Assembly (NCBI GenBank): GCA_016235345.1
Contig: JACRLG010000001.1
Span: 62,001 to 126,000 of the forward strand
From: Deltaproteobacteria bacterium
Lineage (GTDB): Bacteria > Desulfobacterota > Desulfobacteria > Desulfobacterales > Desulfatibacillaceae
Length of the DNA stretch: 64,000 nucleotides
Reading direction: 5' to 3'
Shown piece after piece: positions 58,652-64,000 of the stretch. The stretch's first letter is position 1, and each line of letters opens with the position of its first letter. The translations under genes were made by a program, and so were the position numbers. The notes beneath the pieces were generated by a model. It made no database searches. It was given only the letters and a program-made list of their open reading frames with translations, and was not told the DNA's origin.

Positions 58652-59962
58652 TCAGGCGCCCTTTATGGAGCGGGCGATTTCGCGCACCCGCTTAAGGGCC
58701 TCATGAAGATCGAAGGTTGTGATTTTTCCGTCTTTCACCACGATTTTTCCGTCAACCAGGACGTGGCGCACACAGGGGCCGGAGGCCGCGTAAACCAGGG
58801 CCGAAACCGGGTCATACACCGGGTTGAGCGCCGGAGCCTCCGGGTCCAGGACGATGATGTCCGCCCGCTTTCCCGGCTCGATGGAGCCGGTCACTTCCCC
58901 CAGGCCCATGGCGCGGGCCGCGCCCAAAGTGGCCATTAGAAGAGCCTGCCTTGCGGGAAGCGCCGTGGGGTCGAGGCTTGTAACCTTGTGGAGCTTGGCG
59001 GTCAGGTTCATTTCAAGGAACATGTCGAGGCTGTTGGACGAAGCCGCCCCGTCCGTCCCAAGGCCCACGGTGACGCCCGCAGCCAGGAATTTCGCCACAG
59101 GCGCGACGCCGCTCGCCAGCTTCATCTGGCTGGAGGTGCATACCGCCACCTTAGCCCCGGTATCGGCGATGATTTTTATATCCTCGTCGTCGCACCAAAC
59201 GCAGTGGACCAGGAGGGTGTCCGGGTCCAGCAGGCCCAGGCCCGCAAGGTAAGCAATGGGGCTTTTCCCGTGCCGGGAGATTGACTCCTCGCGCTCGGCG
59301 CGGGTCTCGGCGGCGTGGGTCTGAAAGAGGATTCCCTGCCTCTTAGTCTCCCTCTTGGCCGCAACCAGGGTCTTTTCCGAGCAGGTGTAGGGGCTGTGGC
59401 AGAAGATGGAGGGCGAAATCCGGGGATTTTCGCCTTTAAGCTTTAAGGCGAAGGCCGCCGCTTCCTCCACGTTTTTCATGGGGTCCGTGCCGTCCACCGG
59501 GTCCAGCATCCCGAAACCGGCAACCGCCCTCATCCCGGAGTCCGCGAAGGCGCGGGCCACCTCGTCCTCGAAAAAATACCCGTCGCAGCAGGCCGTTGTT
59601 CCCGAAAGGAGCATCTCCGCCGCCGCAAGAAGGGTCCCGGCCCTGGCGTTTTCCGGGTTCATGTGCCGGGCCTCGGCGGGGAAAATGTGGTTGAAAAGCC
59701 AGTCAGAGAGTAGAAGATCGTCGGCAAGGCCCCGGAAAAGGGTCATGGGCGCGTGGCCGTGGGCGTTCACGAGGCCGGGGGCCACGATGGAGGACGATGC
59801 GTCGATGATCTCCCCTGACGGTGGCGCTGGCTCCGCCGATTCGGGCGTCAGCACCTTTTCGATCAGGCCGTCCTTCACGCAGACCAGGGCGTCCGAAAGG
59901 ACTTCGCCCGAAGCGTTCATGGTGACCAGATGCCCGGCCTTTATGATGAGGTCGTAAGTCAT
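58652..59962 (-). CDS. mtaD: 5-methylthioadenosine/S-adenosylhomocysteine deaminase-type amidohydrolase
   Basis: A 436-residue TIM-barrel amidohydrolase. Metal ligands: 'LVNAHGHAPMTLFRGL' (HxH, about 66-68), 'ILFQTHAAETRAE' (His) , 'LVHCVWCDDEDI' (His) and 'GLGTDGAASSNSLDMF' (Asp). This pattern matches MtaD/SAH deaminases, which turn SAH or MTA into the inosine form. A purine nucleoside phosphorylase is encoded 1.3 kb away on the same strand, fitting a nucleoside salvage route. The substrate is inferred from the family. Confidence 0.88.
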   Translation of the reverse strand: MTYDLIIKAGHLVTMNASGEVLSDALVCVKDGLIEKVLTPESAEPAPPSGEIIDASSSIVAPGLVNAHGHAPMTLFRGLADDLLLSDWLFNHIFPAEARHMNPENARAGTLLAAAEMLLSGTTACCDGYFFEDEVARAFADSGMRAVAGFGMLDPVDGTDPMKNVEEAAAFALKLKGENPRISPSIFCHSPYTCSEKTLVAAKRETKRQGILFQTHAAETRAEREESISRHGKSPIAYLAGLGLLDPDTLLVHCVWCDDEDIKIIADTGAKVAVCTSSQMKLASGVAPVAKFLAAGVTVGLGTDGAASSNSLDMFLEMNLTAKLHKVTSLDPTALPARQALLMATLGAARAMGLGEVTGSIEPGKRADIIVLDPEAPALNPVYDPVSALVYAASGPCVRHVLVDGKIVVKDGKITTFDLHEALKRVREIARSIKGA

Positions 59963-60336
59963 TTTTTAAAATACTCTTGTGCGCAGGAGAGAAATTCCCT
60001 GGCCCATGAAATCATTTCTGCTGTTTCATGGCCTGTAATTGACTCGGTCAGGCCATAATCTCCGGTATTGCGCATATCCTGGGCGTTTATAAGATAGCGA
60101 TGAAACTTTGGGTCCACTTTTCGGGTTTTCGAAAACTCCCTGCCAAAAGCACCAATTACGCCACCGTGACTTGAATAAGACTGGCCAAGAGACACAAGAA
60201 AAGCCTCTGCCACATAAAACATGGCATAATAAGCCCTGGAAGCTGAAAAACTTTGATAGCCGCTCTTTGAAAGAAGCTCTGCGGCATCCAGGCTTTCTTC
60301 GGCTTTGTTAAGGAGCATTTCAATTTCCGGAATCAC
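59959..60336 (-). CDS. HEPN domain protein (HepT-like)
   Basis: A 125-residue all-helical HEPN protein. 'SRAYYAMFYVAEAFLVSLGQ' is the typical first motif and 'AQDMRNTGDYGL' the R-N-x-x-D-Y motif of this family, linked to RNase activity in toxins. It overlaps the nucleotidyltransferase gene by 4 bp (ATGA) and the deaminase gene by 4 bp. It forms a HEPN/MNT toxin-antitoxin pair with its upstream neighbour. Confidence 0.87.
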   Translation of the reverse strand: MIPEIEMLLNKAEESLDAAELLSKSGYQSFSASRAYYAMFYVAEAFLVSLGQSYSSHGGVIGAFGREFSKTRKVDPKFHRYLINAQDMRNTGDYGLTESITGHETAEMISWAREFLSCAQEYFKK

Positions 60337-60659
60337 AGCCTTATTCCCTCCCGGCGTACGTTCTGGAAGAAAGGAAGGTTGCAGTATAAGTATTCATCCT
60401 CCGAAACAAAGGCGCGGGAAAGGACCGCGTCGAAGTCTAGGCTGAGTGATGCAGTAAGTTCGCCGGTTTTTCGGATCATCTCACCATACTCGAAGGGTCC
60501 GTCCATCACGCATAACACGTCGATGTCCGATCCTGAATGCGAGTCCCCGCGCGCCCGCGACCCGAACAGGATAACGTTTTTCAGTTTTTCGCCGAAGATT
60601 GCGAAAAGTCCTTCCCGGTATTTGTCAAGAATCGCCTGGGCGTTTTTTGGTGGATTCAT
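60333..60659 (-). CDS. MNT-type nucleotidyltransferase (antitoxin-like)
   Basis: A 108-residue minimal nucleotidyltransferase from the ATG at 60659 (GGGAGG upstream). 'VILFGSRARGDSHSGSDIDV' holds the GSxxxG and DxD active site. In HEPN/MNT systems it adds AMP to the HEPN toxin and so inactivates it. The frame is open further up only through a repeat remnant. Confidence 0.88.
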   Translation of the reverse strand: MNPPKNAQAILDKYREGLFAIFGEKLKNVILFGSRARGDSHSGSDIDVLCVMDGPFEYGEMIRKTGELTASLSLDFDAVLSRAFVSEDEYLYCNLPFFQNVRREGIRL

Positions 60660-60681
60660 TCGAGCCTCCCTCATTTTTCCG

Positions 60682-60704
60682 CAGTTCGCGTTTTTATCCA
60701 GCCT
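60682..60704. repeat. MITE-like element remnant, R13
   Basis: Only the right end survives (AGTTCGCGTTTTTATCCAGCC), between the MNT and Nudix genes. Confidence 0.65.
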
Positions 60705-61177
60705 TACCATCCGCCCACCTTAACCGTTCCATCCCAGGCCAGATACTCCCGAAGCCTTCTGCGGGTGGCCGGGGAGACGGCCTTGTCGCTTATGGCCCGG
60801 TCCAGGGGGAAAAAAGCGCATCGCTCGATCTCAAGGCTTGGAAAACGCCTTCCGTTCATGGTGAAGTCCCGGCTTAAAAACAGGGCCACGTGATCGCTCT
60901 TTCCCTCTCCGAAGGCCGTGTACACGCCCATGAGGACCAGGGGATCGCCCAGGATCGCGCCTGCCTCCTCGCGGGTCTCGCGCCGGGCCGCATCCACGAG
61001 GGTCTCCAGCCTTTTAACCCCGCCGCCGGGAAAACACCAGTATTTCTGGTAGGTTGGCTTGACCAGCAAAACCGCGTCGTTTTTCACCGCACAGACCCGC
61101 ACCCCCACGGTGAGCGGGCCGGTCACCTGCCAGTAAAGCCTTGCGGCCCTGTAAAAAAGAGTGTTGACGAGCTTCAT
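60704..61177 (-). CDS. Nudix hydrolase
   Basis: A 157-residue protein. The Nudix box is complete: 'GGGVKRLETLVDAARRETRE' followed by EAGA, starting near residue 50. It hydrolyses a nucleoside diphosphate linked to another group; the substrate is not predictable. It overlaps no gene and lies 62 bp after the phosphorylase gene on the same strand. Confidence 0.9.
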   Translation of the reverse strand: MKLVNTLFYRAARLYWQVTGPLTVGVRVCAVKNDAVLLVKPTYQKYWCFPGGGVKRLETLVDAARRETREEAGAILGDPLVLMGVYTAFGEGKSDHVALFLSRDFTMNGRRFPSLEIERCAFFPLDRAISDKAVSPATRRRLREYLAWDGTVKVGGW

Positions 61178-62363: not shown

Positions 62364-62726
62364 ATGAAAAAAAGAGACCTCGAAGAATTCAGGAACCTTT
62401 TGAACGCCCAGCTTCAGGATCTCCTGAGCCAGGCCGGCGACACCGTTTCCGGCATGTCGACCCAGAAGGAGAGCTTCCCCGACCCCACCGACCGCGCCTC
62501 GGCTGAGACCGACCGCAATTTCATGCTGCGCATAAGGGACCGGGAAAGTAAGCTCATCAAGAAGGTGAAAAAGGCCCTGGAACGCATTGACAACGGGACC
62601 TTCGGACTCTGCGAGGAGTGCGGCGAGGATATAAGCCTGGCGCGCCTTAGGGCCCGCCCGGTCACCACCCAGTGCATCGAATGCAAGACCCGGCAGGAGG
62701 CCATGGAGAAGGCCCTTGGCGTTTGA
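62364..62726 (+). CDS. dksA: DksA/TraR family zinc-finger protein
   Basis: A 120-residue protein: a coiled-coil N-terminal half with 'DPTDRASAETDRNFMLRIRD' (the DxxDxA tip that reaches the RNA polymerase secondary channel) and a C-terminal zinc finger 'CEECGEDISLARLRARPVTT' then QCIEC. It modulates transcription initiation with ppGpp. GAGG lies before the ATG. The gene end overlaps the PHP-RNase III frame by 11 bp. Confidence 0.93.
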   Translation: MKKRDLEEFRNLLNAQLQDLLSQAGDTVSGMSTQKESFPDPTDRASAETDRNFMLRIRDRESKLIKKVKKALERIDNGTFGLCEECGEDISLARLRARPVTTQCIECKTRQEAMEKALGV

Positions 62727-64000
62727 AGAAGCGGTTGGCGGGATCGATCTCCACGTCCACTCAACGGCTTCCGACGGATCGTTTTCGCCTGCCGAAATCA
62801 TGGGGATGGCGGCTGAAGCGGGCCTGCGCGCGGTGGCCCTCACGGACCACGACACCGTTTCGGGCGTTAGCGCGGTGTTGGCGGCGGGCGTCCCCGACTC
62901 GCTAATATTCGTTCCCGGTCTTGAGATATCGGTGGAGGTTCCGCATCCTTTTCCCGATTCAGGGGTTTTTCACCTTCTGGGCTATTTCATAGACCCCGAT
63001 TCCCCCCGGCTGGGCGAGACCCTGGCCCGGCTGCGAAACGCCCGCCGGGAGCGCAACCCGAAAATTCTCGCACGCCTGAACGACCTTGGCGTAAACTTAA
63101 GCTACGACGACGTGGCCCGCTTCGCCCCGGACGGGCAGGTGGGCCGTCCCCACTTCGCCCAGGCCCTGGTGAGCGCGGGAGCCGCCCTCGACTTTTCCGA
63201 CGCTTTCAAAAAGTACCTTGCAAAGGGTTCGCCCGCCTACGTGTCCAAGTTCCGCCTTCCCGCAGACGAGGCCCTGGAGGCCGTCCTTGGGGCCGGGGGA
63301 CTTGCCGTGCTGGCCCATCCCTCGTCTTTGGGAATGGACCCCTCAACCCTTGCGAGCTTCCTCCTTCACCTTAAGGGCCTGGGCCTTTCCGGGATCGAGG
63401 CCCTTTACCCCTCCCACAGCCCCGACTCCACCGAACGCTATATCTCTCTGGCCCGCGAGCTGGACCTTAGCGTAACCGGCGGAACCGACTTTCACGGCCT
63501 GGCCAAGCCGGACGTGGCCTTAGGCATCGGGCGCGGCGGGTTTTTCGTGCCCTTTTCCGCCTACGAGGAGCTTTTTGCCCGGCGTGGCCCCAGGGGCTTT
63601 GTAAGACCGCCCCACTCCCAGCTTGAGGCAAGGCTCGGGTACCGTTTCAACAGGCCGGAAATTCTCGCAGAGGCCCTTACCCACTCATCCCACCTTGGCG
63701 ACGGCGCACCCTGCGGCACCCGCGACAACCAGCGCCTGGAGTTTCTGGGCGACGCGGTGCTTGGCCTGTGCGTGGCCATGCTTCTCATGGAGCGCCTGCC
63801 GGAGGCCGACGAGGGCCAGCTAACCCGCATGAGGGCCGCCCTGGTCTCGGAAAAGGCCCTTGCAGACCTTGCCCGCTCCCTGGAGCTAGGCCCGCACATA
63901 GTGCTTTCGAGAGGTGAGGCCGGGGCCAGGGGCTACGACAAGAACGGCATTCTGGCCGACTGCTTCGAGGCCGTCACAGGGGCCATGTTCCAGGACGGCG
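62716..64000 (+). CDS. PHP-domain phosphoesterase fused to ribonuclease III, partial
   Basis: One open frame from TTG 62716 (GGAGAAGG upstream, overlapping dksA) to the window end, 428 codons seen. Residues 1 to about 290 are a PHP domain: 'DLHVHSTASDG' (His13, His15), 'VALTDHDTVSG', 'GLEISVE', 'LAVLAHPSSLG', 'GGTDFHG'. From about 303, without a stop or Met, begins RNase III: 'LEARLGYRFNRPEILAEALT', 'NQRLEFLGDAVLGL' (signature with catalytic Glu/Asp) and 'GILADCFEAVTGAMFQDG'. RNase III cuts double-stranded RNA (rRNA, mRNA); PHP proteins of the RNase AM/TrpH type act on RNA or nucleotide 5' ends. The dsRNA-binding domain would lie beyond the window. Confidence 0.88.
   Translation, partial: MAFEEAVGGIDLHVHSTASDGSFSPAEIMGMAAEAGLRAVALTDHDTVSGVSAVLAAGVPDSLIFVPGLEISVEVPHPFPDSGVFHLLGYFIDPDSPRLGETLARLRNARRERNPKILARLNDLGVNLSYDDVARFAPDGQVGRPHFAQALVSAGAALDFSDAFKKYLAKGSPAYVSKFRLPADEALEAVLGAGGLAVLAHPSSLGMDPSTLASFLLHLKGLGLSGIEALYPSHSPDSTERYISLARELDLSVTGGTDFHGLAKPDVALGIGRGGFFVPFSAYEELFARRGPRGFVRPPHSQLEARLGYRFNRPEILAEALTHSSHLGDGAPCGTRDNQRLEFLGDAVLGLCVAMLLMERLPEADEGQLTRMRAALVSEKALADLARSLELGPHIVLSRGEAGARGYDKNGILADCFEAVTGAMFQDG

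Follow-up and report, generated by a model that had tools for sequence, protein, structure and literature searches.

Recurrent fusion of an RNase AM-like PHP phosphoesterase to RNase III in Desulfobacterales: a putative cut-and-trim ribonuclease

Introduction

The processing of bacterial rRNA precursors begins with cuts by RNase III, which works as a dimer and leaves 5'-phosphates on its products. To our knowledge, the way in which the 5' ends of rRNA are finished is poorly known outside a few model bacteria. A study on Escherichia coli describes that the leader-trailer helix of 23S rRNA is a substrate of both RNase III and RNase AM, and that rnc is dispensable, so that a role essential for ribosome biogenesis is excluded in this organism (PMC10250234). 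RNase AM degrades 5'-phosphorylated and FAD-capped RNA and acts processively on a 40-nt RNA with a 5'-phosphate (PMC9410882); according to a further article, RNase J1 and RNase AM were in 2022 the sole 5'->3' exoribonucleases known from bacteria (PMC9757072).

The DNA analyzed here, a 64,000-nucleotide stretch that we refer to as the window, contains a gene in which relatives of RNase AM and RNase III share one reading frame. Like bacterial RNase III (rnc; TIGR02191), its product possesses catalytic and dsRNA-binding domains, the acidic residues E/D/D/E and a score above the family cut-off, but it bears in addition an N-terminal, nuclease-like domain of about 300 residues. This domain has in common with RNase AM (RNase RNM/TrpH; YciV; PDB 7ug9, 9etk) the PHP fold with its insertion domain, the metal ligands, the arginine residues of the phosphate pocket and a stacking phenylalanine; it differs from RNase AM by a serine (Ser204) in the place of Arg201, by a score far under the cut-off and by the attached RNase III. 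Among PDB entries, the highest-ranking match by sequence (2.2e-39) is CV1693 (PDB 2yb1), which we take to be a 3',5'-nucleoside bisphosphate phosphatase. Fold and ligands are shared with this protein as well, whereas the PHP half falls under the cut-off of the phosphatase model, and its rnc context points to RNA, not to pAp. The eukaryotic multidomain enzymes Drosha and Dicer, which were found among the PDB matches, also join RNase III to other RNA-handling domains; we know of neither a PHP domain nor a tethered exonuclease in them.

Results

A single open reading frame encodes a PHP phosphoesterase and a complete RNase III

The original prediction held that PHP metal motifs and an RNase III signature lie in the same frame without an intervening stop codon. 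The frame beginning with the TTG codon at 62716 (Table 1) is open up to the end of the window (428 codons), and its last 302 bases lie beyond it. Followed along the host contig, it comprises 528 codons up to its stop (L032:2717-4303, corresponding to window positions 62716-64302), and both domains are found in one uninterrupted frame whose product carries a PHP phosphoesterase at its N-terminus and a complete RNase III with a dsRNA-binding domain at its C-terminus. Pfam matches in this protein are, in order, PHP, Ribonuclease_3 (81 bits; cut-off 27) with an overlapping Ribonucleas_3_3 match (110.2 bits; cut-off 35), and dsrm (PF00035; 47.8 bits versus a cut-off of 23), which places a dsRNA-binding domain at the C-terminus. 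The PHP domain (PF02811) scored above the gathering cut-off of 26.4 in the three fusions compared, with 33.4 (window), 26.8, and 37.2 bits.

Table 1. Coordinates of the php-rnc fusion gene, its parts and the adjoining gene in the window
Feature	Position	Strand	Description and evidence
php-rnc fusion gene	62716..64000; stop codon 64300-64302, past window	+	TTG start, 528 aa; open frame, domains, three relatives
PHP phosphoesterase domain, RNase AM/TrpH-like, about residues 10-290	62743..63585	+	profile matches, alignment
PHP domain residues			H13, H15, D20, H45, E70, H86, H201, D258, H260; R110, R113, R144 (5'-phosphate pocket); F164 (stacking)
Interdomain linker, about residues 291-302	63586..63621	+	
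RNase III catalytic domain, from residue 303	63622..64000	+	signature NQRLEFLGDAV at 63727-63759
dsRNA-binding domain, residues 457-520	about 64084-64275, past window	+	
dksA-like gene directly 5' of the fusion	62364..62726	+	PF21157 92.3 bits, PF01258 51.6 bits

The final 11 bases of the dksA-like gene overlap the TTG start of the fusion. A separate feature of the window is a pair of adjoining 125-aa open reading frames on the minus strand (59959-60710) that resembles a HEPN-MNT toxin-antitoxin system, with matches to HEPN (PF05168; 62 bits) and nucleotidyltransferase (PF01909; 41 bits) domains.

A PF00636 search of the host assembly, which is 97% complete, yielded the fusion as its sole RNase III match; no second rnc gene was found. 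The same genome contains, as candidates for a second RNase AM-like PHP protein, just three weak PHP matches that extend over 65, 38, and 79 model positions. It also encodes an RNase J (573 bits) and two proteins of the RNase E/G type; its match to 16S rRNA is partial and is located at a contig end.

Both halves of the fusion look active

The nearest NCBIfam models of the PHP half are those for nucleoside bisphosphate phosphatase and for RNase RNM, and it stays below the equivalog cut-offs of both. Three fusions scored 161.3 (window), 163.5, and 165.2 bits against the RNase RNM model NF047791 (cut-off 375), and we therefore do not file the PHP half as RNase AM itself; the corresponding values for the phosphatase model NF041577 (cut-off 400) are 200.1 (window), 187, and 184 bits. 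A study of RNase AM gives its metal ligands as His13, Asp20, His45, Glu72, His83, His198, Asp255, and His257, places the modelled 5'-phosphate in a pocket formed by Arg107, Arg110, and Arg141, and describes that the base can stack on Phe161 (PMC9410882). In our alignment these ligands correspond to H13, D20, H45, E70, H86, H201, D258, and H260 of the window protein, and the pocket residues and the phenylalanine to R110, R113, R144, and F164. The second histidine of the HxH motif, H15, is presumably a metal ligand as well. Together with H15, the eight ligands are present in all 39 fused rows (38 distinct), in all 58 rows from adjacent separate genes and in all 22 rows from other phyla; R110, R113, R144, and F164 are likewise retained in 39/39 fused rows (38 distinct) and 58/58 adjacent rows, and in the rows from other phyla only R113 varies among the ligand and pocket residues (20/22). 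Arg201 of RNase AM, which contacts a sulfate, aligns with Ser204 of the window protein; the fused rows have L (26), S (8), I (4), or F (1) in this column, in an alignment that is loose past the AHP motif. Judged from these residues, the PHP half is RNase AM-like.

The RNase III half passed the TIGR02191 cut-off of 166.25 in three fusions, with 220.9 (window), 203.7, and 239.3 bits, and the catalytic acidic residues E, D, D, and E are present in each of the 41 fused rows (40 distinct). The column of the second aspartate (E. coli D114) differs between the groups: it is Asp in 41/41 fused rows, but Asn or Gly replaces it in 13/58 pairs of adjacent separate genes, and Asn or Cys in 14/59 rows without php. 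In seven pairs of related fusions pN/pS was 0.23 for the PHP part, 0.22 for the RNase III part and 0.44 for a 25-codon linker, ratios that are rough because pS is high (0.43-0.51). Purifying selection acts on both halves, and more weakly on the linker. Taken together, both halves look active from their conserved residues.

An AlphaFold2 model of the Desulfatibacillum homologue L072 was calculated from a 53-row alignment (mean pLDDT 93.3; pTM 0.62). Runs with pLDDT below 50 are restricted to residues 1-3 and 296-300, and the pTM value fits two rigid domains that would lack a fixed mutual position. The model matched the uncharacterized PHP phosphoesterase 3e0f (Z 33.7), Vibrio cholerae RNase AM (Z 33.0; rmsd 2.3 over 271 residues), and CV1693 (Z 32.8), three scores that are tied within about 1 Z, and E. 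coli RNase AM with Z 25.5. Among RNase III structures it matched with Z 24.1 (151 residues), and the E. coli post-cleavage complex with Z 23.7 (rmsd 5.8).

Sequencing error and internal translation starts

A frameshift or assembly error as the cause of the joined frame is rejected by the occurrence of the same fusion in many genomes. The congener G001 carries it with 70% identity to the window protein, G005 and G008 of another genus with 46-47% identity, and the junctions differ by whole residues; this renders a frameshift error at the junction, the doubt that had accompanied the original prediction, very unlikely. The prediction had furthermore pointed to a stretch without a plausible start between about residues 290 and 303, and the window gene indeed lacks an in-frame ATG, GTG, or TTG codon after Val278 until 11 codons into RNase III.

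An internal GTG near 63550 had also been raised as the possible start of a separate RNase III. This codon (63547) specifies Val278 of an F-V-P motif that is invariant in the proteins of G000 (window), G001, G005, and G008; it reads GTG in the first three of these and GTT in G008, so that no start is possible in the latter. Shine-Dalgarno matches in front of the three GTG codons comprise 3, 0, and 4 nt, and GTG 63547 is at best a weak candidate for an internal start in the window gene. Between 40 codons upstream and 11 codons downstream of the RNase III start, the window gene has start codons only at -36 and -25, both GTG, and a shorter product is thus possible by sequence alone.

In the interval from -25 to +2 codons around the RNase III start, 13 of the 40 fusions contain no ATG, GTG, or TTG codon, compared with none of 59 separate pairs and with 29% of control windows placed inside the PHP part (n=940). 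Shine-Dalgarno matches of at least 4 nt occur in this interval in 8/40 fusions, 23/59 separate pairs and 19% of the control windows; their frequency in the fusions looks like background. Five fusions (G363, G331, G372, G339, and G180, the last three being close relatives) have no such start codon anywhere from -40 to +11, and an ordinary start for a separate RNase III is missing from these sequences.

The fusion is widespread in the order Desulfobacterales

The search for the joined architecture in related genomes, proposed along with the original prediction, covered 389 genomes sampled from the order and detected it in 87, distributed over 10 families; 38 of the 87 were read directly at the locus and 49 were assigned by the stop count of the search tool. 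A full-length match to the fusion alignment without an internal stop was obtained in 79/389 genomes (f1, 4; f36, 61; eight further families together, 14), and all 30 of these that were fetched for locus reading proved to be fused. Locus reading added eight further genomes, six with complete genes (G341, G043, G180, G208, G339, and G372) and two with genes cut by contig ends (G374 and G384). Several fused genomes are assemblies of one to three contigs.

In the window's family, f1, four genomes carry the fusion, one pair belonging to the window's genus and one pair to a second genus; Desulfatibacillum is placed by NCBI in the Desulfatibacillaceae of the Desulfobacterales. The family f36 is most likely Desulfobacteraceae, because its rows group on the tree with the named fusions L078 (Desulfobacula) and L074 (Desulfobacteraceae). 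In this family 69 of 76 genomes are fused, three more (G328, G355, and G383, with unread loci and outside the 87) are fused by appearance, and four show no fusion, namely G268, with rnc alone, and G358, G359, and G373, in which only a divergent PHP gene was found. At least three fusions occur in named genomes among the matches listed (L072, L074, and L078); L072 repeats the gene of G008, so that counts holding both contain one distinct fusion fewer.

Some members of f36 depart from the common layout. Six fusions of the genus g40 (L162 and L196-L200) have longer frames (563-591 aa) with extra residues within or just past the PHP part, and the profile match is split in five of them. Six genomes (G358, G359, G373, G374, G384, and G268) contain a divergent PHP gene that is unjoined to RNase III and encodes 309-324 aa (E 3e-37 to 6e-33). 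The lone rnc gene L201 (G268; genus g134) stands amid a nearly all-fused family and is a candidate for fission or for loss of the PHP half.

The phylum was sampled with 297 genomes; among the matches listed at E up to 1e-90 (97 genomes), an uninterrupted full-length fusion was found only in G000 and G005, both of the window's family; fusions with split matches, as in g40, could score below this limit. Open frames of more than 435 aa were otherwise represented, among the matches listed, only by the interrupted G011 and G028. The matches listed in a class-level search (340 genomes) were all labelled as the window's order or nearer and added nothing. Among named rnc loci, which stem mostly from other classes and phyla, those offering 1,200 nt or more of upstream sequence have a PHP gene directly upstream in 0/51 cases (two of 53 were dropped for want of room).

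The fusion arises from a conserved dksA-php-rnc gene order

Outside f36, php and rnc are usually neighbors located 3' of dksA, a gene concerned with the control of rRNA synthesis. At 31 rnc loci, consisting of the window's and the best 30 of 39 matches, php is separate and directly upstream in 23, fused in three and neither in five (one of which has just 335 nt of upstream sequence); php hence adjoins or is fused to rnc at 26 of the 31. A dksA-like gene is found upstream of php, at most 600 nt from its domain, at all 96 loci with room (58 separate and 38 fused, with L072 and G008, the same gene, among the fused); four further loci have no room. Among adjacent separate pairs, 31/59 share a frame, and 18 of these 31 have exactly one intervening stop, situated 24-81 nt from the RNase III domain, although the in-frame frequency is not a fair estimate since the pairs were partly picked by an in-frame search. 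Where a single stop codon lies between in-frame php and rnc genes, loss of this one stop would fuse the pair. In family f22 (L043-L045 and L048-L051) the two genes share a frame that is interrupted, a short distance 5' of RNase III, by one or two stop codons.

On a quick tree built from 95 rows, 38 of which are fused, 13 changes between the fused and the separate state were needed, at least eight of them forced by starred branches; five remained after the fusions of f39, f40, f59, f60, f61, and f71 had been left out. A single clade comprising the fusions of f1, f24, f36, and f52 plus two named ones, a group chosen after the tree had been seen, was rejected by an AU test with 30 rows (p-AU 0.000147). 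Arranging the four f1 fusions (window's genus and Desulfatibacillum) as one clade was 12.6 log units better (p-AU 0.639); since they can form one clade, the tree overcounts there, and the raw numbers of changes are upper guesses. On these sequences, php and rnc appear to have fused more than once, and fission after an older fusion is possible. Going beyond the original prediction, the fusion is thus both widespread and recurrent in the order and arises from a conserved dksA-php-rnc gene order.

Discussion

On balance, we infer that the fusion is probably a bifunctional cut-and-trim ribonuclease acting mainly on rRNA precursors; the two activities, their coupling and the rRNA substrate all belong to this inference. 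Its C-terminal half would be an ordinary bacterial RNase III that dimerizes and cuts double-stranded RNA, and its N-terminal half a PHP nuclease of the RNase AM/TrpH type that would remove nucleotides from the 5' end of 5'-phosphorylated RNA. Through the tether, each RNase III dimer would carry a pair of 5'->3' trimmers close to both of the 5' ends that it has just produced. Since RNase III leaves 5'-phosphate ends and RNase AM degrades RNA with a 5'-phosphate, such a tether makes sense as a cut-and-trim device. Its main task would most likely concern rRNA precursors, with RNase III opening the leader-trailer helices and the PHP half trimming towards the mature 5' ends. The fusion is real, and the initial suggestion that one protein might cut dsRNA and trim the product stands as the best-supported reading, with a putative enzymatic coupling. 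Only tentatively would we go as far as a self-contained enzyme that matures rRNA in one step and whose neighboring genes were repeatedly fused in Desulfobacterales by selection for this coupling. Several points weigh against cut-and-trim. The RNase J and the two RNase E/G proteins of the host could mature the 5' ends of rRNA, the ends freshly made by RNase III are base-paired and may have to be opened for the PHP half, and this half, by its profile scores and alignment, is under both equivalog cut-offs and has Ser204 in the place of Arg201. In E. coli, moreover, rnc is dispensable (PMC10250234). Most sampled families of the order keep php and rnc separate, and the fusion is consequently not required.

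An explanation that we regard as somewhat unlikely, although it deserves serious attention, is that the loss of a stop codon between neighbors was merely tolerated, that the tether is without a role and that the PHP half does unrelated work, for example the dephosphorylation of pAp or the degradation of short RNAs. Among NCBIfam models, the PHP half comes closest to that of the 3',5'-nucleoside bisphosphate phosphatase (200 bits, sub-cut-off), the 18 adjacent pairs with a shared frame and a single stop show how little a fusion takes, constraint is lowest in the linker, and RNase J and RNase E/G are encoded in the same genome. Yet a roleless tether fits poorly with a fusion that is nearly fixed in f36 and kept in other families, with the joining of the same gene pair in lineages whose single origin is rejected, and with the retained residues of the pocket for the 5'-phosphate of RNA. 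We give distinctly less credence to a decay enzyme whose RNase III would open antisense or sRNA-mRNA duplexes and whose PHP half would degrade the 5'-phosphorylated or FAD-capped fragments. The processivity of E. coli RNase AM on 40-nt 5'-phosphate RNA, its removal of FAD caps in vitro and the effect of its loss on the levels of FAD-capped RNA in cells (PMC9410882) would suit such a role, as would the many mRNA targets of RNase III (PMC10250234); two papers, however, tie RNase AM to rRNA ends, and the upstream neighbor of the fusion is dksA, with its role in the control of rRNA synthesis.

That the joined frame reflects a sequencing error, or that an internal start or proteolysis yields separate PHP and RNase III proteins, strikes us as very improbable. 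Within the interval from -25 to +2 codons, 27 of the 40 fusions do have an in-frame start codon, the GTG at -25 of the window gene recurs in G001 and G005, and the fusions known from a single genome per family (f39, f40, f59, f61, and f71) could be assembly errors. Against this stand the open frame common to many genomes, several of them assembled into one to three contigs, the fusions without any start in the same interval, a state found in no separate pair although in 29% of the PHP control windows, the background-like frequency of Shine-Dalgarno matches in comparison to that of separate pairs, and the five fusions that are startless from -40 to +11.

The original prediction knew of no described fusion of this kind, and we found no published description of a PHP-RNase III fusion in the open-licence PMC literature, which was searched in part. 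Both protein families are known; their joined architecture is new and recurrent within one order, and genome databases may already list it uncommented. The repeated fusion of rnc to an RNase AM-like gene constitutes 'Rosetta stone' evidence for a shared pathway, and it makes cutting and trimming accessible to joint tests on one and the same protein. It furthermore provides a function-linked candidate for the TrpH-like PHP proteins across an order of sulfate reducers.
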